Shown here: piece after piece, positions 1 to 31,254 of the stretch
Layout of the letters: each line of letters begins with the position of its first letter
Numbering within the stretch: the stretch's first letter is position 1
Source of the DNA: Bacteroidota bacterium
GTDB lineage: Bacteria > Bacteroidota > Bacteroidia > B-17B0 > Aurantibacillaceae
Assembly: GCA_030684395.1 (NCBI GenBank)
Contig: JAUXTT010000004.1
Location: 248,001 to 312,000 of the forward strand
Direction: 5' to 3'
DNA length: 64,000 nucleotides
The notes under the pieces: generated by a model
The model's input: only the letters and a program-made list of their open reading frames with translations
The model's database searches: none
Told to the model about the DNA's origin: nothing
Position numbers and translations under genes: made by a program

Positions 1-389
1 CCACTTACAGTCCAATTCTGAACGGGACTATTAATAGTATTGGTAGTATCTGAGTAATGCTTTGGAATCGACGTGTTCTTAAATTTTAACGTGGTCCCAT
101 TTGCAGTAACTGTACCAGCTGAAACATCTGTTCCCGAAACAATTCTTCCATTCTCAAATGGTTGAAAACTGAAAAGTGCTGCTACAGAAATAGTCGTGTC
201 TAAACAAGCTATTGGATTGGTGCTAATAAAGGCGAAAAATTCAGTTTTAGTAGTATTTAATTCCCCATAACGCCTTGCCGGATCGGCTACATTACTTATC
301 TGAGATGTTGGAGTTTCCTCATTAACTTTTTCTTTTTTGCATGCAAAAAAACACGAGACAAATGCAATTAAAACAATAAGCCTTTTCAT
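1..389 (-). CDS. Lipoprotein, 5' part only
   Basis: The gene runs off the low-coordinate edge; about 129 codons are visible from an ATG at 387-389. The N-terminus has a basic start, a hydrophobic stretch and a lipobox FFAC with the acylated Cys at residue 17, followed by KKEK, so it is probably a membrane-anchored lipoprotein exported by Sec. The visible mature part is Thr/Ser-rich, beta-like, and matches no family I recognise. It lies upstream (transcriptionally downstream) of recO with a 30 bp gap on the same strand, so co-transcription with recO is possible. Function unknown. Confidence 0.75.
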   Translation of the reverse strand, partial: MKRLIVLIAFVSCFFACKKEKVNEETPTSQISNVADPARRYGELNTTKTEFFAFISTNPIACLDTTISVAALFSFQPFENGRIVSGTDVSAGTVTANGTTLKFKNTSIPKHYSDTTNTINSPVQNWTVS

Positions 390-2856: not shown

Positions 2857-5721
2857 TTAATTTCCTATCAACACAAAGGCTCCCCAGAAAAATGGCTCTT
2901 TGAATTTTGTTTTTATTTGTTTTTGCGCTGCTAAAAATGCTTCTTGTTTATTTCCACTTACTGAGTAGTTTTTGTAGAAAGCAGTCATCAATTCCATTGT
3001 AGCATCATCGCTTACCTCCCACAAACTCATAATCACCGATTTTGCACCGGCCACCAAAAATGAGCGCTGCAAACCATACACGCCTTCACCTGATTTAATA
3101 TCTCCCAAGCCTGTTTCACATGCACTCATCACCACAAGGTCTGTTTTTTCAAGTGATAAGTTCATTGCTTCATAAGCAGTTAAGATGCCATTGTTTGCAG
3201 TAGCTCGCTCCCCTGTTTCATCAAATACTTTTTCGCAATTAGCCAACATCAATCCGGAACGTAATAATGGGTTTTTTCTTGCTTTAGATGTTTCTACTCC
3301 TAGTACTTTATCCGCGTCCACTTCGCTAAGATCTGCTAAAAAGAAACCATGCGTTGCAATGTGTAATACTTCCGCGTGTGCTGCTTTCACGGCTTCTTCA
3401 GTTGCATCATTTTGCATTACAACTGTATTTGTGTATCCGGATGATTTCAGGATTTTGGTAATGTTTTCTACCTCCGTTTTTGTTCCTGGTAAAGAAGGAA
3501 TAATGTCGCCCCCGCCATAATTTGGATAACCCAATAAGAAGGCGGTTTTTGCTCTACCCGTTGTACTTTCTGCTTTAAGTTTCAAAATATCTTTTGTGTT
3601 TCCTACAACAACAATATTTTCCTTTTCTATCAAGTATTTATTTGTTTTAGGGTCTTTTAATGTAAGCAAACTGATTTGGTTATAAACGCCATCTAAGGAT
3701 ACGTATATTTTTTTCTTACCTGCTATCTTATTCTCAATTGGTTCCCAAAACATGGCATAACTCTTATTGTCAGCTTTCATTTCTTTTACTGATTCGCGAT
3801 AAAAAGTGATGCCTTCGTTTTCCATTGCGGCTCCGTTAGGAAAAGTAACAAAATCCAGTGTGCCACTATTATTCAGAACCATTGCTACATATTGAGTCTC
3901 TTTTGTAAATATATTATCAAACTTTTGAACCTGAATAATTTCTACAGCTGCTTCATCCGCTTTTAACTTTGAAGCGATGTGATTGTAGGACACTTTTTCT
4001 TTTACTTCTCCGGCGCCGAACGCACTCGACTTTTGCGACAATGCTTTTTCCAGTTCGTTTGATTTATTCTCAAGGGAATCAACATTTATTTTTTCTTCCG
4101 CAATCTGTTCTTTTGTCATGGTATACACACGGCCTAATTCCTCTTTTGTGCTCAGCCAATTATTATAGTCGTTGATTAGTGATTCATCCCCGCTTGCTAA
4201 AATTTGATTTCTAACTTTTGATGAAGAGTTTAATAATAAAGCTTTGTTGTGCAATTGATTATTCAACATGGCTTCCAACAAAGATTTATCGTTCAAATAA
4301 TTAGCGATTACAAATGAATTAAACCGATTAAATCTTGGAAGTATTTTATCCCAGAATTTTGTTTTTTCTGTTTCACTTAAAGTAGAAAAATAATCGTCGA
4401 TATACATTGAAGTCTTATCCAATACAACTTTGTAATTGGCAGAAGCCTCTGTGTTTTTATTGTTCACCCACTGAGCAACAGCAAGGTTTTCTACTTGTTT
4501 GATATACTCGGGATGGTTCTCTCCATAAATAATTTTATCAGCCTCCACTACCTGAATCATATACTCAAGAGCCTTTGCTTTATTTCCATTCACCCTGTAA
4601 TATGTTGCCAAATCTGAGCGTGTAGCAGTGGTTGCCGAATTTTTATCCCCGAATTTCCTTACATAAATATCCAAAGCGCTTACTAAGTTTTTTTCCACCA
4701 ATTCGTTTTTCCCCATTTCCCAATATAAACCGGCTAAACCTCTTTTAAGATGTGCGTAATCAGGGTGACCCGTTCCCAGTTTTTTTTGTTTGATCTCTAT
4801 CGCCTGCAAGTAAATCTTCTCCGCTTCATCATACTTTTTCATATCGCGATAAATGGAAGCAAGATTAATAGTGAGTTTTAAATAGTTCGATGATTTTTCG
4901 CTCAAAGCTTCTTTCGCAATACCCGTTGATTTTAGCATTAGTTCCTCTGCTTTTTCCAACCGACCTGTTGCCTGATATAACATTGCTTTATTATTCAAAG
5001 ACAAAGCATAGCTCAAACTCTTTTCTCCCGCAACTTCTTTATTCAATTCAATTGCCTGATCAATCCATGTTTCTGCCTCGGCATACTTTCCCATATCTTT
5101 AAGCAGTACAGCTTTGTTGTTTAAGGAAACCGCATACGATTCACTTTTAGGTTCCAGGCTTTCTCGCAAAGCAAGTGCTTTATCTATACACTCCAATGCT
5201 TTGGTGTAGCGAGCTGTTGACTGAAACAATAGGGCTTTATTATTTTGTAGCTGAGCATAAGCTGCAGTATTGGTTGAGCTGGAAGAGAGAAAAAATTGTT
5301 CCGACAAAAAAAACATGGAGCGTGCCGAGCCAAATTTATTTCCTGCAAAAAACACCTCTCCTTTTCTATTATAACCGTATGCCCTGTCATAGTCGGAGTG
5401 CTCCTTGCCCTGCAAAAAATCTTTTGAGTTGATCAACACATTAGAAGCTCTTCCTCCCTTTTCATCTGTTTCAAACAAACCTGAATTATCACTAAAAGAA
5501 ATGGCATAGTTAAAATTACTTGCATCAAACTCTTCCCTGGATTTTTCCAGTTTTTTATCTATCGCATCATTTGTTTTATTCTTTACATTTTTTGCTGTTT
5601 CCTTTGCTTTGTCTTTTGCTTTATCTTTAACCTTATCCTTCACATTATTAAGGTTGAATTGAGCAAATGAGCTAATGCCAATACATGAAATTGCTACAAA
5701 TAGAATGGATCTGGTAATCAT
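2857..5721 (-). CDS. Exported TPR-CHAT caspase-like peptidase
   Basis: 954 residues starting with a Sec signal peptide (about 1-21, ending SSFAQ). Next comes a charged helical stretch with repeated VKDK/AKDK/AKET units (about 25-65), then a long array of tetratricopeptide repeats (about 130-480), a helical spacer, and a C-terminal CHAT domain of the caspase/separase clan (about 640-954). The CHAT catalytic dyad is visible: His about 790 in HIATHGFF and Cys about 867 in SACETGLGD, with the usual GVYGLQRSFLVAGA and SLWEVSD segments after it. TPR-CHAT proteins elsewhere are peptidases triggered through their TPR part; the substrate here is unknown. The next gene on the same strand, encoding a TPR-SpoIIE phosphatase, lies 103 bp upstream. 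Confidence 0.88.
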   Translation of the reverse strand: MITRSILFVAISCIGISSFAQFNLNNVKDKVKDKAKDKAKETAKNVKNKTNDAIDKKLEKSREEFDASNFNYAISFSDNSGLFETDEKGGRASNVLINSKDFLQGKEHSDYDRAYGYNRKGEVFFAGNKFGSARSMFFLSEQFFLSSSSTNTAAYAQLQNNKALLFQSTARYTKALECIDKALALRESLEPKSESYAVSLNNKAVLLKDMGKYAEAETWIDQAIELNKEVAGEKSLSYALSLNNKAMLYQATGRLEKAEELMLKSTGIAKEALSEKSSNYLKLTINLASIYRDMKKYDEAEKIYLQAIEIKQKKLGTGHPDYAHLKRGLAGLYWEMGKNELVEKNLVSALDIYVRKFGDKNSATTATRSDLATYYRVNGNKAKALEYMIQVVEADKIIYGENHPEYIKQVENLAVAQWVNNKNTEASANYKVVLDKTSMYIDDYFSTLSETEKTKFWDKILPRFNRFNSFVIANYLNDKSLLEAMLNNQLHNKALLLNSSSKVRNQILASGDESLINDYNNWLSTKEELGRVYTMTKEQIAEEKINVDSLENKSNELEKALSQKSSAFGAGEVKEKVSYNHIASKLKADEAAVEIIQVQKFDNIFTKETQYVAMVLNNSGTLDFVTFPNGAAMENEGITFYRESVKEMKADNKSYAMFWEPIENKIAGKKKIYVSLDGVYNQISLLTLKDPKTNKYLIEKENIVVVGNTKDILKLKAESTTGRAKTAFLLGYPNYGGGDIIPSLPGTKTEVENITKILKSSGYTNTVVMQNDATEEAVKAAHAEVLHIATHGFFLADLSEVDADKVLGVETSKARKNPLLRSGLMLANCEKVFDETGERATANNGILTAYEAMNLSLEKTDLVVMSACETGLGDIKSGEGVYGLQRSFLVAGAKSVIMSLWEVSDDATMELMTAFYKNYSVSGNKQEAFLAAQKQIKTKFKEPFFWGAFVLIGN

Positions 5722-23626: not shown

Positions 23627-25582
23627 ATGAAATTCAGATATTGCTACATCCTATTCGCTTTACTACTTCATCTGAGTTCTTTTCCTCAAAACAAAGATCG
23701 CATAAAAGAATTTGAGTTGGCATTAAGTAAAGCCAAACACGATTCTACCAGAATAAAGTACTTCAATGAATTGAGTTGGGAATGGAGTTCATATAATTTT
23801 AACCTTTCTAAAACGTACGCCAAGAAGGCATTGGAGCTTGCATTAAAAACCAACGACACAAAAGCTATGGCTTCCAGTTATAATATACTGGCCTCCGTTT
23901 TTGATTATTCGGGATATTTTGACAGCTCATTTGTATATTATGCAAAAGCGTTGAAAATTCGGAAAAACGCGGGTGATAAAAATGGAGAGGCAAATATTCT
24001 TAATAACATTGGCATCTCTTTTTATTTTCAGGGAAATTTTAATGAAGCACTAAAATATTACCTAAAAGCAGCCGGCATAAGAGAACAATTAAAAGACACC
24101 CTGGGTTATGCGCAGAGCTTAAACAACATTGGAATTATCTACAGAAACACAGGTGATCTGAAAAATGCTATTGACACGTATAAAAAATCCCTTCAGGTAA
24201 AAACGGCATTGAGAGACGATAATGGAATATACATGAGTTGCACCAACCTCATTGTAGCCTTTCAGGGAATAAAAGAATATGATTCGGCTTTTTATTACGC
24301 AGACAAGGCTTTGAGAATTGCACAAGAAAAGAAAGAATCAACTTACATCGCCGCAATATTAGGAAACAAAGCCTCTATTTATAAGAATCTGGCGCAATAC
24401 GATAAATCCATTGAGCATCTGAATAAAGCACTTGAGATGTACAAAAACACCGATAATCAACAGGACGAGGTCTTAATGATATCAATGCTCGCCGACGTTT
24501 ATTTTCTGAAAAAAGATTTTGATAAAGCACTTTATCATTACGAAAAAGGGCTATCGATGTCTAGAAAACTACAACGGAATGAAATAACATTAACTTACTT
24601 ACTCAATATTTCCAACACATATACCGGCTTGAAAAAATTCGAAAAAGCTCTGATATTTAAAACCGAATATATTACATTAAAGGATAGTATGAATAATGCT
24701 GAAAACAAAAAACAGCTGAATCAATTAAAAACAAAGTTTGAAACTGAAATAAAGGAAAAAGAAATTGCACAAGCAAAGACAGCGCAAAGACTAACACATC
24801 TTCAACTAGAAAAAAACTCTAAAGATTTACGAAATCTTATTATTCTGGCAGCTACTCTGATAGTTTTAATAAGTATCGTTTTATATTTTTTTCTGCAAAA
24901 GCGCAAAGCAAATAAAAAGATCTCTGAGCAGAGCAGAAAAATTGAAATAGCTCTCGCCGAAAAAGAAACACTGTTAAAAGAAATACATCACCGGGTAAAA
25001 AATAATCTTCAAATTATTTCCGGACTACTTGAACTACAGGAATCGCTTCATCAGGATCCGGGAACCCATAAAATAATAGAAGAAGCTCAAAGTCGCATTA
25101 AATCAATGGCTATCACACACGAAATGCTTTATCAAAACGCAGATCTTTCTGCCATTGATTTTCAGGAATACGTGGAGCGCTTAGTTGACAGTGTGGAGAA
25201 GTCTTTTTCCGGGCAGGAACTTTCTGTAGAAAAAATAATTGATGTTAAGAACGTTTTTTTTAGCATCGACACAATCATTCCGATTGGACTCATTTTGAAT
25301 GAACTCATCACCAATTCATATAAATATGCTTTTGAAAAGGATAGAGGAAATAAATTATTTGTTTCAATCGAAAAAAAAGAAAGTACCTGGATACTAACCT
25401 GCGGCGATACGGGAATGGGATTACCGGAAAAAGTATCTGATGTTCTTAAACAAAAAACATTTGGCCTGAGGTTAGTAGGTATGCTGATAAGGCAGTTGAA
25501 AGGAAGCTACACATATACATTTGAAAATGGAGCTTTTTTCGTACTTTCGTTTAAAGAACTTGTTCCCACTTCACATGATTAA
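23627..25582 (+). CDS. TPR-sensor histidine kinase (HisKA_2 type)
   Basis: 651 residues: signal peptide (about 1-20), periplasmic TPR repeats (about 35-370; NIGISFYFQGNFNEALKYY and similar), coiled coil, a membrane helix (about 402-420), a dimerisation/phosphoacceptor domain of the HisKA_2 family with His about 454 in EIHHRVKNNLQ, and a HATPase_c domain with N-box NELITNSYKYAF and G-box CGDTGMGLP. The expected mechanism is autophosphorylation and transfer to the LytTR regulator whose gene overlaps it by 8 bp. The signal is unknown; the TPR part suggests a protein or peptide partner in the periplasm. Confidence 0.92.
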   Translation: MKFRYCYILFALLLHLSSFPQNKDRIKEFELALSKAKHDSTRIKYFNELSWEWSSYNFNLSKTYAKKALELALKTNDTKAMASSYNILASVFDYSGYFDSSFVYYAKALKIRKNAGDKNGEANILNNIGISFYFQGNFNEALKYYLKAAGIREQLKDTLGYAQSLNNIGIIYRNTGDLKNAIDTYKKSLQVKTALRDDNGIYMSCTNLIVAFQGIKEYDSAFYYADKALRIAQEKKESTYIAAILGNKASIYKNLAQYDKSIEHLNKALEMYKNTDNQQDEVLMISMLADVYFLKKDFDKALYHYEKGLSMSRKLQRNEITLTYLLNISNTYTGLKKFEKALIFKTEYITLKDSMNNAENKKQLNQLKTKFETEIKEKEIAQAKTAQRLTHLQLEKNSKDLRNLIILAATLIVLISIVLYFFLQKRKANKKISEQSRKIEIALAEKETLLKEIHHRVKNNLQIISGLLELQESLHQDPGTHKIIEEAQSRIKSMAITHEMLYQNADLSAIDFQEYVERLVDSVEKSFSGQELSVEKIIDVKNVFFSIDTIIPIGLILNELITNSYKYAFEKDRGNKLFVSIEKKESTWILTCGDTGMGLPEKVSDVLKQKTFGLRLVGMLIRQLKGSYTYTFENGAFFVLSFKELVPTSHD

Positions 25583-26291
25583 AGTTGCCATTTTAGATGA
25601 TGAAATTATTATCTGCGAAACCCTCGAGAAATTTCTCAGTGAGCTTGGATATAACGTAGTAGGATATGCACTAAGTTATCAGGAAGCTATTGAACTAGCG
25701 GAAAATGAAAAGCCGGACGTTTTTTTGCTGGACATTAACCTCAACGAAAAAAAATCAGGTAAAGATTTCGCGGCTTATTTAAGAGAACATGTAGCTATTC
25801 CGCTCATCTTTATTTCCTCCTATTCAGATAAAACCACGCTGGACAGCATAAAGCAAGTCAGACCGAATGGATACCTGGTAAAGCCTTTCAATAAAAATGA
25901 TCTATACACTTCTATCGAAATTGCTCTGAACAATTTCAACATCCGCCAATCAGAGGAAAAAAAAGAGATGAGTACGGAAACCGATAGCTTTTTTATTAAG
26001 CAGGATTCTTTTTTTGAAAAAATCAAATACGACGATCTATTGTATATTAAATCCGAAGGTGTGTACGTAGAACTTTACACCGAAACAAAAAAATACCTTC
26101 ATCGTGAAACGCTGAAAAATATGTTGGATAGGTTTTTGCCCAAGCAATTTCAGCAAACACAACGCTCTTATATTGTTAACACAAACCATATTAGCGCAGC
26201 CAGCAGAGAAAGTGTAATGATAAAAGGGACATCTGTTCCCGTAAGTCCTTCTTATGCCAATGAACTGTTTCTTAAATTAAACATCGGATAA
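25575..26291 (+). CDS. LytTR-family response regulator
   Basis: 238 residues: receiver domain (1-120) with the acidic pocket LDDE (8-10), phosphoacceptor Asp53 in LLDINL, and Lys103 in VKPF; then a LytTR DNA-binding domain (about 139-238) with DLLYIKSEGVYVELYT and QTQRSYIVN. The ATG at 25575 lies within the stop region of the kinase gene (ATGATTAA), so the pair is translationally coupled. LytTR proteins bind pairs of direct repeats about two helical turns apart; such a repeat is found 68 bp after this gene at 26359-26392. Confidence 0.94.
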   Translation: MIKVAILDDEIIICETLEKFLSELGYNVVGYALSYQEAIELAENEKPDVFLLDINLNEKKSGKDFAAYLREHVAIPLIFISSYSDKTTLDSIKQVRPNGYLVKPFNKNDLYTSIEIALNNFNIRQSEEKKEMSTETDSFFIKQDSFFEKIKYDDLLYIKSEGVYVELYTETKKYLHRETLKNMLDRFLPKQFQQTQRSYIVNTNHISAASRESVMIKGTSVPVSPSYANELFLKLNIG

Positions 26292-26358
26292 TCTTTTACC
26301 TGATGACACTCAAGTATAAAACTGCAGTTATTTAGCCGTTCTCCCGCTTACTCTTCCT

Positions 26359-26392
26359 GTTTCGTATCAAATTTGACCCGTTTCGTATCAAA
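26359..26392 (+). promoter_or_regulatory. LytTR-like tandem operator
   Basis: Two perfect copies of GTTTCGTATCAAA at 26359-26371 and 26380-26392, 21 bp start to start (two helical turns), the geometry of LytTR sites. The second copy is centred about 47 bp upstream of the start site predicted from the -7 box at 26420. Confidence 0.6.
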
Positions 26393-26419
26393 AATTCGAT
26401 CGATCTATTTTAATTGATC

Positions 26420-26427
26420 TATATTTG
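26420..26427 (+). promoter_or_regulatory. -7 box of the 26454-27916 unit
   Basis: TATATTTG is an exact consensus match. No TTG lies 19 nt upstream, fitting a promoter that needs an activator. Confidence 0.5.
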
Positions 26428-26453
26428 GTATAAATGATCTAAACTTAATTCTT

Positions 26454-26915
26454 ATGGAACCACTTTATCACAACGACTACATTTTATTGGCAAAGGTTAA
26501 TTACACTCATACTTTGAGCATGACCAATATTGAAGTAGGAGAATACAGCGTTTTATTCACAAAAAAAAACATATACCTTCTAAAGTATTATGCTGTAATA
26601 GGTGGTCTTAAAGAAGATGAATGCAAGTATGATGGACTGAATGCTCCGGCGGTATTTTACAAATTTACTAATGACACTAAAGACGCGGCATCATTAGATA
26701 GCGCAGCAAGTGCATTAACAAGAAAGTATGTTGGTATTGAAATCAATATTAGCGAACTAACAAAATTTGTCATAAAAAATGGTTGGTTTACCAGAGGCAT
26801 ACACATGAAAGCATACGGCAATTCACCTCTCAAGTACAATAGAACTGTAGTATTCAAGGGTAAGGAAACCGGAATCAAGTTGCTGGAATTTTACCGTGAT
26901 ATGATTAAACAGTAA
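26454..26915 (+). CDS. Hypothetical protein, putative LytTR target
   Basis: 153 residues, no signal peptide or membrane helix; I do not recognise a family. The first half has beta-strand-like alternation (YILLAKVNYTHTL, EYSVLFTKKNIYLLKYY), and the second half again (YVGIEINISELTKFVI, YNRTVVFKGKETGIKLLEFY), ending in a helix. A PH-like or similar small beta fold is possible but not shown. The ATG at 26454 follows a good -7 box by 26 nt. The WG-repeat gene starts 26 bp downstream, so the two are probably co-transcribed from the promoter behind the LytTR-like operator. Confidence 0.7.
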   Translation: MEPLYHNDYILLAKVNYTHTLSMTNIEVGEYSVLFTKKNIYLLKYYAVIGGLKEDECKYDGLNAPAVFYKFTNDTKDAASLDSAASALTRKYVGIEINISELTKFVIKNGWFTRGIHMKAYGNSPLKYNRTVVFKGKETGIKLLEFYRDMIKQ

Positions 26916-26941
26916 GGATTAACTATTAAAAAATAAGTATT

Positions 26942-27916
26942 ATGAAGAAAACATTTTTTATTGCAGCAATAGGTTATGTAACCGTTTCAGTAAACGCACA
27001 AAATAAATTCGAAGAAGGCGGGAAATACGGACTTAAAAAAGATGATAAAGTAATTTTAAAACCCAAATACGATTATATGTCTTCTTTTCAGGGAAAACAA
27101 AATAAGATTGCCGTTGTACAAATGGGAACAAAATACGGTTGCATTGACAGAAACGGAAAGGAAATTATTCCAACTATTTATGAAAACACAAGTGTTTGTG
27201 CTAGTGATGACGTGATTGAGGTTATTCTGAATGAAAAGAGGGGAGTTTTTGACATCAACGGTAAACAACTAATACCTATACAATACGACGGCATTAGTTG
27301 TTACAGTGAAGGTATGGCGGTTGTTCAACTGAACAATCCAAACACGCATTACGGATGTGTTGATGCCACAGGAAAAGAAGTTCTTCCCGTTAAGTATGAG
27401 GAATTAAGTGGTTTTAAATTAGGGATATCCACTGCAAGATTGGACGGCAAAGTTGGCTATATTGATAAGACGGGAAAAGAAATTATTCCATTCAAGTATT
27501 ATTGGGCTTATCCGTTTTCAGAAGGTTTAGCAAGGGTTGAATTAGATAATAAACAAGGCTTCATTGACAACTCCGGTAAAGAAGTAATTGCATTGAAATA
27601 CAAAGAAGCTAGAGATTTCTCTGAAGGGCTTGCTATGGTGAAGACAGAAGAAAAATGGGGGTTAATAGACAAAATAGGAAAAGAACTCACTCCATTGAAA
27701 TATGATGAAATTGAGAAGTTTAGAAAAGAGATTGCAATAGTAGTAATTGCCGAAAAAAAAGGACTTATTGATATTACAGGAAAAGAAATAGTTCAGCCTC
27801 TGTATGATGATATAGATACTTTTTTCGGTTTTGATGAAGAGGGCTTCATGAAAGCAACCCTTAACGGAAAAGAGGGAAAAATAGACAGATCGGGAAAGTT
27901 TACCCCAAGTGAATAA
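26942..27916 (+). CDS. Exported WG-repeat protein
   Basis: 324 residues: signal peptide (about 1-19, ending VNAQ) followed by about nine WG-type repeat units of 30 or more residues with the pattern G-x-I/V-D-x-x-G-K-E-x-I-P-x-x-Y (for example YGCIDRNGKEIIP, VGYIDKTGKEIIPFKY, QGFIDNSGKEVIALKY, WGLIDKIGKELTP). WG repeats are thought to form a beta solenoid or propeller for binding; no enzymatic residues are evident. A bidirectional terminator follows at 27915. Confidence 0.88.
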   Translation: MKKTFFIAAIGYVTVSVNAQNKFEEGGKYGLKKDDKVILKPKYDYMSSFQGKQNKIAVVQMGTKYGCIDRNGKEIIPTIYENTSVCASDDVIEVILNEKRGVFDINGKQLIPIQYDGISCYSEGMAVVQLNNPNTHYGCVDATGKEVLPVKYEELSGFKLGISTARLDGKVGYIDKTGKEIIPFKYYWAYPFSEGLARVELDNKQGFIDNSGKEVIALKYKEARDFSEGLAMVKTEEKWGLIDKIGKELTPLKYDEIEKFRKEIAIVVIAEKKGLIDITGKEIVQPLYDDIDTFFGFDEEGFMKATLNGKEGKIDRSGKFTPSE

Positions 27917-27946
27917 AAAAGTGGGATCCTTCGAATCCCGCTTTTA
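27915..27946. terminator. Bidirectional terminator
   Basis: AAAAGTGGGAT / ATCCCGCTTTT stem with an A-run before and a T-run after. It sits between the convergent WG-repeat and PKD/T9SS genes and can work for both strands. Confidence 0.75.
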
Positions 27947-27959
27947 GTTTTATAGGATT

Positions 27960-29453
27960 TTATTTAACTGCTTTTACCGTACTTAAAACTCTGTTCTCTG
28001 CAATAATATTTACATAATAAATGCCATTGTTAAGTGTAGATGTATTCAGTTTGAACTCATTGTTTCCTTTTGCGATAACAACATTTTCAGAAAGAACATT
28101 TGCTCCTAAAACATTCACCACTTCAATTTTACCATTTGCAGATAAAGAAGAGTTAAATGTTACCAAAGAAGTTTCTGCCATTGGGTTCGGGAATACTTTT
28201 GTTTCTGCAAACACTGATTGATTCTCTGTAAGGCTAACGAGTAATGGAGCCGTAATTACAAGAGATCCGATAGTGTTGGCGTTTTCCGGACGCGAGAAAA
28301 ACGCAGAAGAATCACAATGTGTACTTGAGCAGCCAGTAGCTGTATCTGTTATTGTAAGACAAATAATATAATTGCCGGGAACCGCATAATTATGGGTTAA
28401 GGCCGGAAGAGCCGACGAAGTTCCATCTCCAAAATTCCATAAATAGGTCATTGTAGAAGGTCCGGTTGAAGTATTAATTCCATACCATACTGTCGGATCC
28501 AAAGAGTCCTGTTGAAGTGTGAAATAAGCATTGCAAGGTACAACCGGGTTTCCCGCAGTATATATTATGCAATGAGAATCTGAGCATCCGATTGAATAAG
28601 TGGTGTCTTCTGCATAATAACATACCTGATAATATCCATCACTAGGGAAAGTATACTGAATGCTATCAGTATAAAAGGTTTGTCCGTCAACTGTAATGTG
28701 ATGTGCTGTATAGTTATATCCCATTGTGCTTCCGTTCAATTCAGCCGTTAAACCGCTAACTGTAGACGCATACATATTAACCTGAAGATTGCAAGGATAT
28801 ACGGTATCGTGAACATTGACATTAACATATACAGAGTCTGCACATGTTTGTGATGTCAAGGCATCTGTAAAAGTAACCGAAAACCATAACTTGAAATTCC
28901 CATAATATGGGAAAGTGTATTCCATGTAATTCTGGTTAGCACTTATTGGAAGATTTACCCCCAACGTATCTTCCACCCGCCAGTTTAAGATTGGATTGCC
29001 AAGAGGAGTATTGAAGTTCCCGTAAAAAGGTCTTGTAAGACCAGCCAAATTATCGGCACTAATTGATGTAACATCAATCAAGCAGGAATAATCTGTAATG
29101 ACAATAGTGTCATATATTAAATCGCTGATTGAAGTGCTATCTACCGGATTTACAGCATAAACTTCGGACGCAACATAAAAAGTATCGTTTGAAGTATAAT
29201 TATGCATGAACATGATTTGTCCCGTAGCTCCCGTATCAATAGCCATATTTCCTGAGGATCCGTCTCCATAATTAATAGACAGTGCTGTAAGCCATCCCGC
29301 TGGAGCAGAAGCATCAACAGTAAAATGCATATTCCCGTTACCTAGGTTTGATAGTGTTACCGATCCTGTAACAACTTGCGCTCTGCCAGTTATAACAGCA
29401 CACAGTAATAAAAGAAATACAGTTAATTTCTTTAGTTGTAAACGTGTTTTCAT
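27960..29453 (-). CDS. Secreted PKD-domain protein with T9SS sorting domain
   Basis: 497 residues: signal peptide (about 1-25, ending GRAQ), several Ig/PKD-like beta domains, one clear PKD repeat (about 330-375, TYLWNFGDGTSSALPALTHNYAVPGNYIICLTI), and a C-terminal type A T9SS sorting domain (about 415-497; KVFPNPMAETSLVTF ... YYVNIIAENR). It is exported across the outer membrane by T9SS and anchored or released at the surface. It is paralogous to the next gene upstream; the last 60-90 codons are almost identical at DNA level. A role in adhesion is possible but inferred from domain type only. Confidence 0.88.
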   Translation of the reverse strand: MKTRLQLKKLTVFLLLLCAVITGRAQVVTGSVTLSNLGNGNMHFTVDASAPAGWLTALSINYGDGSSGNMAIDTGATGQIMFMHNYTSNDTFYVASEVYAVNPVDSTSISDLIYDTIVITDYSCLIDVTSISADNLAGLTRPFYGNFNTPLGNPILNWRVEDTLGVNLPISANQNYMEYTFPYYGNFKLWFSVTFTDALTSQTCADSVYVNVNVHDTVYPCNLQVNMYASTVSGLTAELNGSTMGYNYTAHHITVDGQTFYTDSIQYTFPSDGYYQVCYYAEDTTYSIGCSDSHCIIYTAGNPVVPCNAYFTLQQDSLDPTVWYGINTSTGPSTMTYLWNFGDGTSSALPALTHNYAVPGNYIICLTITDTATGCSSTHCDSSAFFSRPENANTIGSLVITAPLLVSLTENQSVFAETKVFPNPMAETSLVTFNSSLSANGKIEVVNVLGANVLSENVVIAKGNNEFKLNTSTLNNGIYYVNIIAENRVLSTVKAVK

Positions 29454-29504
29454 TGATTGGTTATTTACACTAAATTACAAAAAAAAACGAATAATTTAAT
29501 ATAA

Positions 29505-29551
29505 TAAGAAATGCCGCCCTTCAGCCAAGGCATAAAGAACGACATTTCTTA
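29505..29551 (-). terminator. Terminator of the 29562 gene
   Basis: On the minus strand the outer stem TAAGAAATGTCG / CGGCATTTCTTA closes an imperfect inner hairpin and is followed by an AT-rich run. It begins 11 bp after the stop codon. Confidence 0.55.
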
Positions 29552-29561
29552 TTTCAGATAC

Positions 29562-31058
29562 TTACTTAACCGCTTTCACTGTTTTCAAGATTTTATTTTC
29601 CGCAATAATGTTCACATAATAAACACCGCTTGAAAGAGTAGATGTACTCAGTTTAAACTCGTTGTTTCCTTTTGCGATAACAACATTTTCAGAAAGAACA
29701 ACAGATCCCAGAATATTTACCACTTCAATTTTACCATTTGCAGATAAAGAAGAATTGAAAGTTACCAAAGAAGTTTCTGCCATTGGGTTCGGGAATACTT
29801 TTGTTTCTGCAAGCACTGATTGATTTTCCTGAATACCAACCGGAGCACTTACCGTTAAAGAGCCAATAATAGCATTAGTAGACACCTGTTGTGAGATTCT
29901 GAACGCTGCAGAAGAATCGCAAGTTGAGCTTGAACAAGCATTTGCATCAGTGATTGTTAAACAAATAACATAATTACCTGCTACCGCATAATTATGAACA
30001 GGATAAGCTAATGTTGAAGAAGTTCCATCGCCAAAATCCCATGTATATGATAATGCCCCTGCTCCAGAAGAGTAGTTAATTGCATACCATTGCCCAACAT
30101 TTAAAGAATCTTCCCATAAGTAGAAAGAAGCATTACACTGTACAGGCCCGGGAATTGTATAAAGAATACAAATAGAATCGTAGCAATAAGTAGCTTGAGT
30201 AGAGTCTTCCACATAGTAGCAAACATTGTAGCTGCCTGCCCCCGGGAATGTATAATCTGTGCTATCTGTGTTCCAGAAATACTGTCCGTCAACCATTAAA
30301 TAACTTGCAGAGAAGTAATTGTTTGCCTGTCCATAAATAGCTGCGGAAAACGCACCTGTTGAATAAGCGAATACATTTGCCTGTAAACCACAATTTCCTG
30401 AAGGTAATGAATCTCCGATGCTTATAGAAGTATAAACTGAGTCGCTGCAATAAGTAGAGGTTAAGCTATCATATGTCATAACATAAAAGGCAATGTTATA
30501 GAATCCACCTGTTGGAAATGTGTATGATACACTATTGCCATTCGTACCGCTCCATGACTGAAGGGAATTGCCCAATGAATCGCTTATTACCCAATCAGAT
30601 TGATATACAACTTGTGAAGAATTTACGGTAGAATAGAAATACCAATCGTACATTCCACCACCCTGCTGCATTCCGATAGGACTTGCATCAATAGAGCAAG
30701 CAATATCAGTTACATATACGGTATCATATGTATAAGCGCTACAGTTAAAAGAACTATCCGCCGGATCATAAGCAAACAAATTGGAACTAACCAAATAAGT
30801 CCCGTTAGCAGAATATTGATGTGTATTACTGAAACTGGTTCCTGTTCCCGAAGTTTGCATTCCATCTCCAAAATCTACATACACGTATGAATCCCAACCT
30901 CCTGTGTAGGTGGATTGGTTCAAAAAACTAATATTCCCGCTACCCTGATAGGTGATATTGGTTGAAGTTGCACACTGTGCCTGAACACCCGTAAATGCCA
31001 CAAAGGAAAGTCCCGCAGCTAACAGGTGTTTTTTCATGGTTTGTAATGTTTTTTTCAT
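29562..31058 (-). CDS. Secreted PKD-domain protein with T9SS sorting domain (paralogue)
   Basis: 498 residues from the ATG at 31058 (another Met 7 codons later, MKKHLLAAGLSF, is also a good signal-peptide start). Order: signal peptide ending GVQAQ, beta-sandwich repeats with FGDG-type PKD cores (VDFGDGMQTSG near residue 60; TWDFGDGTSSTLAYPVHNY in the last third), then the T9SS sorting domain (KVFPNPMAETSLVTF ... KTVKAVK). It is a tandem paralogue of the 27960 gene with the same domain order. The upstream frame to 31142 is open but lies over the promoter region (TATCTTCG at 31116-31123). Confidence 0.88.
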   Translation of the reverse strand: MKKTLQTMKKHLLAAGLSFVAFTGVQAQCATSTNITYQGSGNISFLNQSTYTGGWDSYVYVDFGDGMQTSGTGTSFSNTHQYSANGTYLVSSNLFAYDPADSSFNCSAYTYDTVYVTDIACSIDASPIGMQQGGGMYDWYFYSTVNSSQVVYQSDWVISDSLGNSLQSWSGTNGNSVSYTFPTGGFYNIAFYVMTYDSLTSTYCSDSVYTSISIGDSLPSGNCGLQANVFAYSTGAFSAAIYGQANNYFSASYLMVDGQYFWNTDSTDYTFPGAGSYNVCYYVEDSTQATYCYDSICILYTIPGPVQCNASFYLWEDSLNVGQWYAINYSSGAGALSYTWDFGDGTSSTLAYPVHNYAVAGNYVICLTITDANACSSSTCDSSAAFRISQQVSTNAIIGSLTVSAPVGIQENQSVLAETKVFPNPMAETSLVTFNSSLSANGKIEVVNILGSVVLSENVVIAKGNNEFKLSTSTLSSGVYYVNIIAENKILKTVKAVK

Positions 31059-31254
31059 AATTTCTTGTTTTATAATTATTGATTTAAGATTCTGATACAA
31101 AAATGACACTATACACGAAGATAAGCAATGCTCTTTATTCACTTTCTTACTTGTTCAAATGCAGTTATTGTCCTATATAATACCCTCATTCCCGTAAACA
31201 TTTTATTGTTCAGAAATTTACCGGGGCTTTTAGTCTGCTGCGGTGGAATAGTGC

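Follow-up and report, generated by a model that had tools for sequence, protein, structure and literature searches.

Regulators with a LytTR DNA-binding domain recognise 9-bp direct repeats that occur in pairs, with 10–13 bp between the two units, according to the available part of PMC11347149. In the LytTR Regulatory System (LRS), 12 bp separate the repeats in most cases, and the pair often lies 10 bp before the –35 element; their letters are poorly conserved, whereas their spacing is highly conserved (PMC6193735, available part). The same portion of that source describes LytTR-type repeats at Bacteroidota promoters for two LRS-like operons in Bacteroides, and gives two Bacteroides examples of promoters of the –33/–7 type. 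In the two operons, 11-bp repeats separated by an 11-bp gap stand 11 bp before a promoter of the form TGTA/TGTG-19-TATCTTTG (PMC6193735). For AgrA and AlgR, the accessible sections of the respective sources place the promoter-proximal AgrA repeats with their centre near –60 (PMC4227749) and give the AlgR site as CCGTTCGTC (PMC4064291).

The locus described here lies in a 64,000-nucleotide stretch, referred to as the window, of a Bacteroidota genome, an affiliation to which its promoter type and secreted proteins also point. On its forward strand, profile matches identified a sensor histidine kinase with TPR repeats and a HisKA_2 domain (23627–25582; HisKA_2 match 2.5e-27). The HATPase_c match of this protein scored 24.5 bits, just under the Pfam cut-off of 26.4, and one membrane helix was recognised by eye. 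The start of the following forward-strand gene (25575–26291) overlaps the kinase stop by 8 bp. It encodes a two-component response regulator of the LytTR type, with profile matches to a receiver (PF00072, 1.4e-19) and a LytTR domain (PF04397, 5.4e-18), and its receiver retains the acidic pair D8/D9, the aspartate D53 of an LLD motif and the lysine K103 of a VKPF motif. The overlapping HisKA_2 protein is the candidate partner kinase, and the two proteins would work as a pair. Two genes follow on the same strand, which we propose as first and second target. The first is an orphan gene (26454–26915) for a protein of 153 aa that could be placed in no family; neither Pfam nor NCBIfam matched it, none of its PHROG matches improved on E 0.2, and its predicted structure, modelled alone, had a mean pLDDT of 32.7, too low to be useful. 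Twenty-six bp further on begins a gene for a WG-repeat protein of 324 aa (26942–27916), whose start resembles a signal peptide by eye. A terminator-like hairpin (27917–27945, forward strand) lies behind these two genes, which may be co-transcribed; three terminator-like sites were found on both strands of 26200–28000, compared with a mean of 0.9 in shuffled DNA.

The 162-bp gap between the regulator gene and the orphan gene contains two perfect copies of the 13-bp direct repeat GTTTCGTATCAAA, at 26359–26371 and 26380–26392 on the forward strand, which were detected in the sequence, by pattern search and by a repeat finder. The distance of 21 bp is that from start to start, and only 8 bp lie between the copies. 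The similarity extends leftwards to 16 nt at 94% (CCTGTTTCGTATCAAA / CCCGTTTCGTATCAAA). With this extension, the pair can be read as two 9-bp half-sites, CCTGTTTCG (26356–26364) and CCCGTTTCG (26377–26385), with 12 bp between them, which agrees with the spacing of 10–13 bp between repeats of about 9 bp given for LytTR sites in the available part of PMC11347149. A perfect non-overlapping 13-mer repeat at any spacing arose in only 8 of 20000 dinucleotide shuffles of the gap. Matches to the 13-mer with up to three mismatches were not over-represented in the window (32, against 38.12 expected), so that only the perfect pair is notable. Nikolskaya and Galperin reportedly formulated the LytTR half-site consensus as [TA][AC][CA]GTTN[AG][TG]; by inspection, the two half-sites fit it in 6/9 and 7/9 positions and both contain the GTT core.

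Promoters of Bacteroidota are of the –33/–7 type. An exact –7 box of the form TAnnTTTG (TATATTTG) is located at 26420–26427 on the forward strand, and the place of the –33 element (26395–26398) reads TTCG in the sequence. Transcription would start near 26434. Half-site 2 ends at 26385, just upstream of the –35/–33 place, with its GTT starting 40 bp ahead of the box at –7. The preliminary description of this DNA had reported two perfect repeats 21 bp apart, directly behind the LytTR gene and ahead of a promoter with an exact –7 box that lacks TTG, and in all these respects it proved accurate; the box also falls within the segment it delimited, which ends at 26427.

We consider it likely that the pair is a LytTR operator at which the adjacent regulator binds and activates the orphan and WG-repeat genes. 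Assignment of the site to the LytTR operators is well supported at the level of sequence, and the adjacent regulator is a plausible cognate binder. In the mechanism we propose, the TPR-type kinase (23627) would phosphorylate the receiver of the LytTR regulator (25575), which would then bind as a dimer, with one LytTR domain on each GTTTCG half-site and the half-sites facing the same side of the helix at a distance of two turns. At this promoter, with its perfect –7 box and no –33 element, the bound regulator may recruit RNA polymerase and supply the contact that the missing element cannot. The 26454–26942 unit, comprising the orphan gene and the gene for the exported WG-repeat protein, would be transcribed only while the TPR kinase is active. 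Of the regulatory reading offered in the preliminary description, the class of the site stood, with the enrichment of offset 21, the distance to the –7 box, a tandem at the closest homologue and the published geometry in its favour; activation by the adjacent pair is its conjectural part. The points against the reading include the imperfect fit to the consensus, the failure to find a regulon, an orthologous locus or an autoregulatory site of this motif, and a few offset-21 repeats elsewhere that are probably not operators.

The promoter layout of the two LRS-like operons from Bacteroides is almost that of the window site, with direct repeats shortly before the –35/–33 place. From the table figures in the available part of PMC6193735, the second repeat of the B. 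thetaiotaomicron operon starts 45 bp before TATCTTTG (11+11+4+19); the base aligned with it in the window, 26376, is 44 bp before TATATTTG. The repeats are 21 bp apart in the window as opposed to 22 in the LRS-like operons, and the window site follows the regulator operon whereas the LRS-like site precedes it (same part of PMC6193735). Regulators of the S. mutans LRS type are described there as lacking a receiver and being restrained by a membrane inhibitor, and the Bacteroides LRS-like regulators as carrying membrane segments, while the regulator in the window contains a receiver and is encoded next to a kinase. We also considered membership of the LRS itself and rejected it on the presence of both the receiver and the kinase.

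As in the AgrA system, two direct repeats precede a promoter whose spacing is suboptimal, and the repeats in the window would be centred at about –58 if transcription starts near 26434, as compared with near –60 in the accessible part of PMC4227749. With AlgR the window site shares the GTT core, although AlgR sites, as far as the available text of PMC4064291 describes them, are not necessarily tandem at 12 bp and the window pair is. Unlike both systems, the locus in the window combines the half-site CCYGTTTCG with a –7 box of the Bacteroidota type and a TPR-type HisKA_2 kinase, and the proposed targets are an orphan and a WG-repeat gene. The operators of RcoM and CoxC also present direct repeats, spaced by two turns, to a LytTR domain; they differ in having three 8-bp repeats, and the CoxC site overlaps the –35 element and represses (PMC11347149, available part).

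The idea that an offset of 21 bp plays a special role came from a first look at the 260 bp behind 30 LytTR homologues, in which a repeat matching in 10 of 13 positions occurred at this offset in 7/30 loci and at other offsets in 1 to 5. This count includes one locus that was not read through its LytTR gene (L024), one with runs of N that match every offset (L033), and both members of a near-identical pair (L016/L017). A larger survey was then based on 134 genes. In profile searches, the genome that contains the window had 26 LytTR matches, one of the same genus 46 and one of the same family 31, of which 26/26, 45/46 and 31/31 were used; the one match of the 103 left out lies in an 866-aa frame. 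The remaining 32 genes were homologues of the regulator from 21 other family genomes, hand-picked among the matches listed, mostly high-scoring, and taken without a one-by-one scan for the LytTR domain. Two genes contained in no open reading frame (L070, L071) were dropped, which left 132 anchors, and 18 first-look loci (L025–L042) were left out of this survey.

Intergenic DNA around the anchors (293 regions, 64453 bases) was scanned for direct repeats at each offset from 11 to 60. Offset 21 yielded 15 repeats at 14 loci, while the other 49 offsets averaged 0.67, with 3 as the highest count. In the control, twenty 20-kb stretches without LytTR matches from the same three genomes (209 regions, 40340 bases), offset 21 yielded 2 repeats and the other offsets a mean of 0.43 and a maximum of 4. 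With the window left out, the 14 repeats at offset 21 compare with 0.67 elsewhere (Poisson P ~2e-14). Four of the 15 repeats stem from first-look loci (the window, L065 twice and L067) and 11 from others. A preliminary version of the survey had likewise given 15 at offset 21 and at most 4 elsewhere. A few of the offset-21 repeats, such as that at L214, are probably not operators.

We then related the repeats to promoters, accepting a –7-like box when 5 or more of its 6 letters matched and a repeat when 8 of 10 did, with the second copy starting 35–47 bp before the box. Near LytTR genes, 31/339 regions had such a repeat at offset 21, and other offsets averaged 5.62 (sd 2.80, maximum 11); the 31 regions are not fully independent, since some come from both strands of a single gap (L138, L139, L198). 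Control regions gave 5/208 at offset 21 and a mean of 4.05 at other offsets. A direct comparison of LytTR and control regions without the window (30/338 versus 5/208; Fisher P 0.0015) is weaker than the offset test. Counted by position, offset 21 reached 129 near LytTR genes and the others 7 to 23; in the control it reached 17, tied for top in a range of 2 to 17 for the others.

Within these repeats, GTT stands in register in both copies at 11/31 offset-21 sites, compared with 10/95 at other offsets. The offset-21 GTT pairs with at least 4 of 8 equal flanking letters concentrate at –42 to –36 of the box (8 pairs) and at –35 to –29 (3 pairs), with at most 1 in any other bin, while the control had none at –42 to –36 and 2 at –49 to –43. 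At –40, the window site falls inside the peak bin. TTC pairs also peak at offset 21 (10 regions, 4 of 8 flanks), which implies that GTT is not the whole motif. Profiles of single trinucleotides before exact –7 boxes gave too weak a signal to be used.

Other LytTR loci show the layout of the window site. Among 38 family genomes, the closest regulator homologue to be found was L014/L061, with 41% identity; there, TTTTGCAGTTGAT/TTTTGCAGTTTAT stand at 21 bp, 31 bp after the stop of the LytTR gene and ahead of a gene for an exported protein. In the window's own genome, ACGGTTCATGAA and ACGGTTCGTGAA at locus L136 are arranged in the same way ahead of an exported-protein gene. Outside the window, GTT was present in both copies at 10 sites, of which eight were mapped, with signal peptides judged by eye; six of the eight lie before exported-protein genes close to a LytTR gene and the other two (L139, L168) before a kinase–LytTR operon itself. 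From the starts of their proteins, compared by eye, the L139 and L168 operons look orthologous in two species. Their half-sites differ between the species and agree within each (GTTTGT twice, GTTGAT twice), and such a change in step is as expected for paired binding sites.

The 13-mer GTTTCGTATCAAA occurs in the 4.87-Mb genome only as the copies at 26359 and 26380, and the pair remains a single occurrence when three mismatches are allowed. By this motif, the regulator would therefore have one target. The genome-wide search for pairs at 21 bp that the preliminary description had recommended thus fits a one-target regulator, and the lack of a second pair means that no regulon backs the assignment of the site to the adjacent regulator. 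The pair of 9-bp cores gave 9 genomic matches at up to three mismatches (this pair with none, the other 8 with three each), compared with 19 for the reversed control. A looser pattern, GTTY-17-GTTY-(32..36)-TAnnTTTG, gave 9 matches against 6 in its reversed control and hence defines no regulon. No matching tandem was present ahead of the kinase gene, the sole offset-21 match there being TTTTATT, which argues against autoregulation by this motif.

The DNA of the 162-bp gap had no match in 59 other relatives, and a plasmid blastn with it returned one chance-level hit (E 0.5). The exact pair was absent from the GTDB contigs. The 26454 protein had no relatives in the 59 other relatives or in 394 other genomes of the class, and none in the GTDB contigs, in a scan that finds close relatives only. 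These gap and protein searches, together with inspection of locus L221, revealed no orthologous locus; in L221, from a genome of the same genus (G001), no divergent kinase–LytTR pair was present in the 2.8 kb 5' of sucA.

Several other explanations of the repeats have to be weighed against an operator bound by the adjacent regulator. The site could be a LytTR operator occupied chiefly by one of the 25 remaining LytTR regulators of the genome, with the adjacent pair having its targets elsewhere. The 26 LytTR matches in the genome, half-site letters that vary widely among LytTR loci and the lack of a matching site before the kinase operon itself all speak for such cross-regulation; we nevertheless regard it as unlikely, given a unique perfect pair directly behind a LytTR gene, the similar layout at L061 and L136, and the mapped non-window GTT sites, 6/8 of which serve an exported-protein gene near a LytTR gene and 2/8 a kinase–LytTR operon. 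Direct repeats are used by several regulator families, and the motif fits the LytTR consensus imperfectly, so an activator or repressor of another family, for instance a winged-helix protein of the OmpR type, may be envisaged. The repeats of OmpR-type regulators are usually 10–11 bp apart, and offset 21 is enriched near LytTR-type genes and hardly in control DNA, which makes an operator of this kind highly improbable.

The pair might instead be a relic of a mobile-element end or a local duplication without function, as it forms an imperfect 21-bp duplication. Tandem repeats of roughly this size are found at IS21-like ends, and TCAAATTTGACCC resembles some transposon ends. An IS21-type end, which would have istA/istB genes next to it and a second end in inverted orientation, was examined as a candidate and rejected, with no IstB match near the site and no second copy of the pair on either strand. 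The IstB family (PF01695) matched the genome twice, once over the cut-off, in 499- and 855-aa frames on other contigs; there is no exact pair in the GTDB contigs, and the 20-mer spanning the junction was found in 2 other genomes of 395 in the phylum, with 2 mismatches each, compared with 5 matches of its reversed control. Since the pair is unique and has no IstB gene near it, it is neither a dispersed repeat nor a recognisable element end, and we give a relic or duplication an even smaller probability than an operator of another family. Short repeats are common in AT-rich intergenic DNA, yet the rarity of perfect 13-mer repeats in the shuffled gap (8/20000) and a spacing and distance to the –7 box that both fit the LytTR pattern leave a chance repeat as scarcely credible.

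The site in the window belongs to a known class, that of the LytTR operators, and a general rule possibly lies behind it. Tentatively, and with slightly less than even confidence, we suggest that in this bacterial family the rule consists of two GTT-core half-sites 21 bp apart, with the second core 36–42 bp before TAnnTTTG, whose letters are private to each regulator and change in step, and that the 26–46 LytTR paralogues per genome are mostly dedicated one-target switches for adjacent exported-protein genes. If so, LytTR targets in these bacteria would be readable from sequence alone. Confirmation of the spacing rule would allow targets to be proposed for numerous regulators that have yet to be studied, and would link a kinase of the TPR type with an orphan gene and a surface protein with WG repeats. 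With its clean repeats and exact –7 box, the window site is a good test case.

Further repeats were observed at other loci. Apart from the window site, one of the 9 matches to the looser GTTY pattern has a LytTR match nearby: at G000:C20:100259–100326 (L258), a GTTY pair and an exact –7 box are found less than 1 kb from the LytTR match at C20:100972, which makes this a further candidate operator of the type described. Upstream of the LytTR gene at L065 (G008:C37), (T)AAGCCATAA(G) forms two distinct tandem pairs at 21 bp, among further short repeats. At L176 (G001:C14, about 3800–3890), three partial units of the TATAAA type follow one another at 21 bp, downstream of a LytTR gene and ahead of an exact –7 box; they may represent a three-site operator like those of RcoM and CoxC. 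GTTTCAGGTT is repeated at 21 bp in two genomes, at L214 and at position 3870 of the control stretch L230; by eye, the L214 junction reads like ATP-synthase genes and that of L230 like respiratory-complex genes, and the repeats are probably a spacer element rather than a LytTR site.

Other repeats are of a different kind. An identical 30-mer occurs twice near the start of a contig of the window's genome (G000:C10:7–36 and 346–375), 339 bp apart, and is perhaps a tandem repeat that broke the assembly. Around the –7 box of the window, GATCTA is present three times (26402, 26416 and 26436; region 26402–26441), and at these copies TAATTGATCTA/TAAATGATCTA stand 20 bp apart; the hexamer has 14 occurrences on the forward strand of the whole window. 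The copies round the –7 box may possibly form a second operator. Beyond the terminator-like hairpin, the reverse strand (27960–31142) encodes two adjacent paralogous secreted proteins with near-identical C-terminal ends that resemble a sorting domain by eye, and these proteins are probably cargo of type IX secretion.
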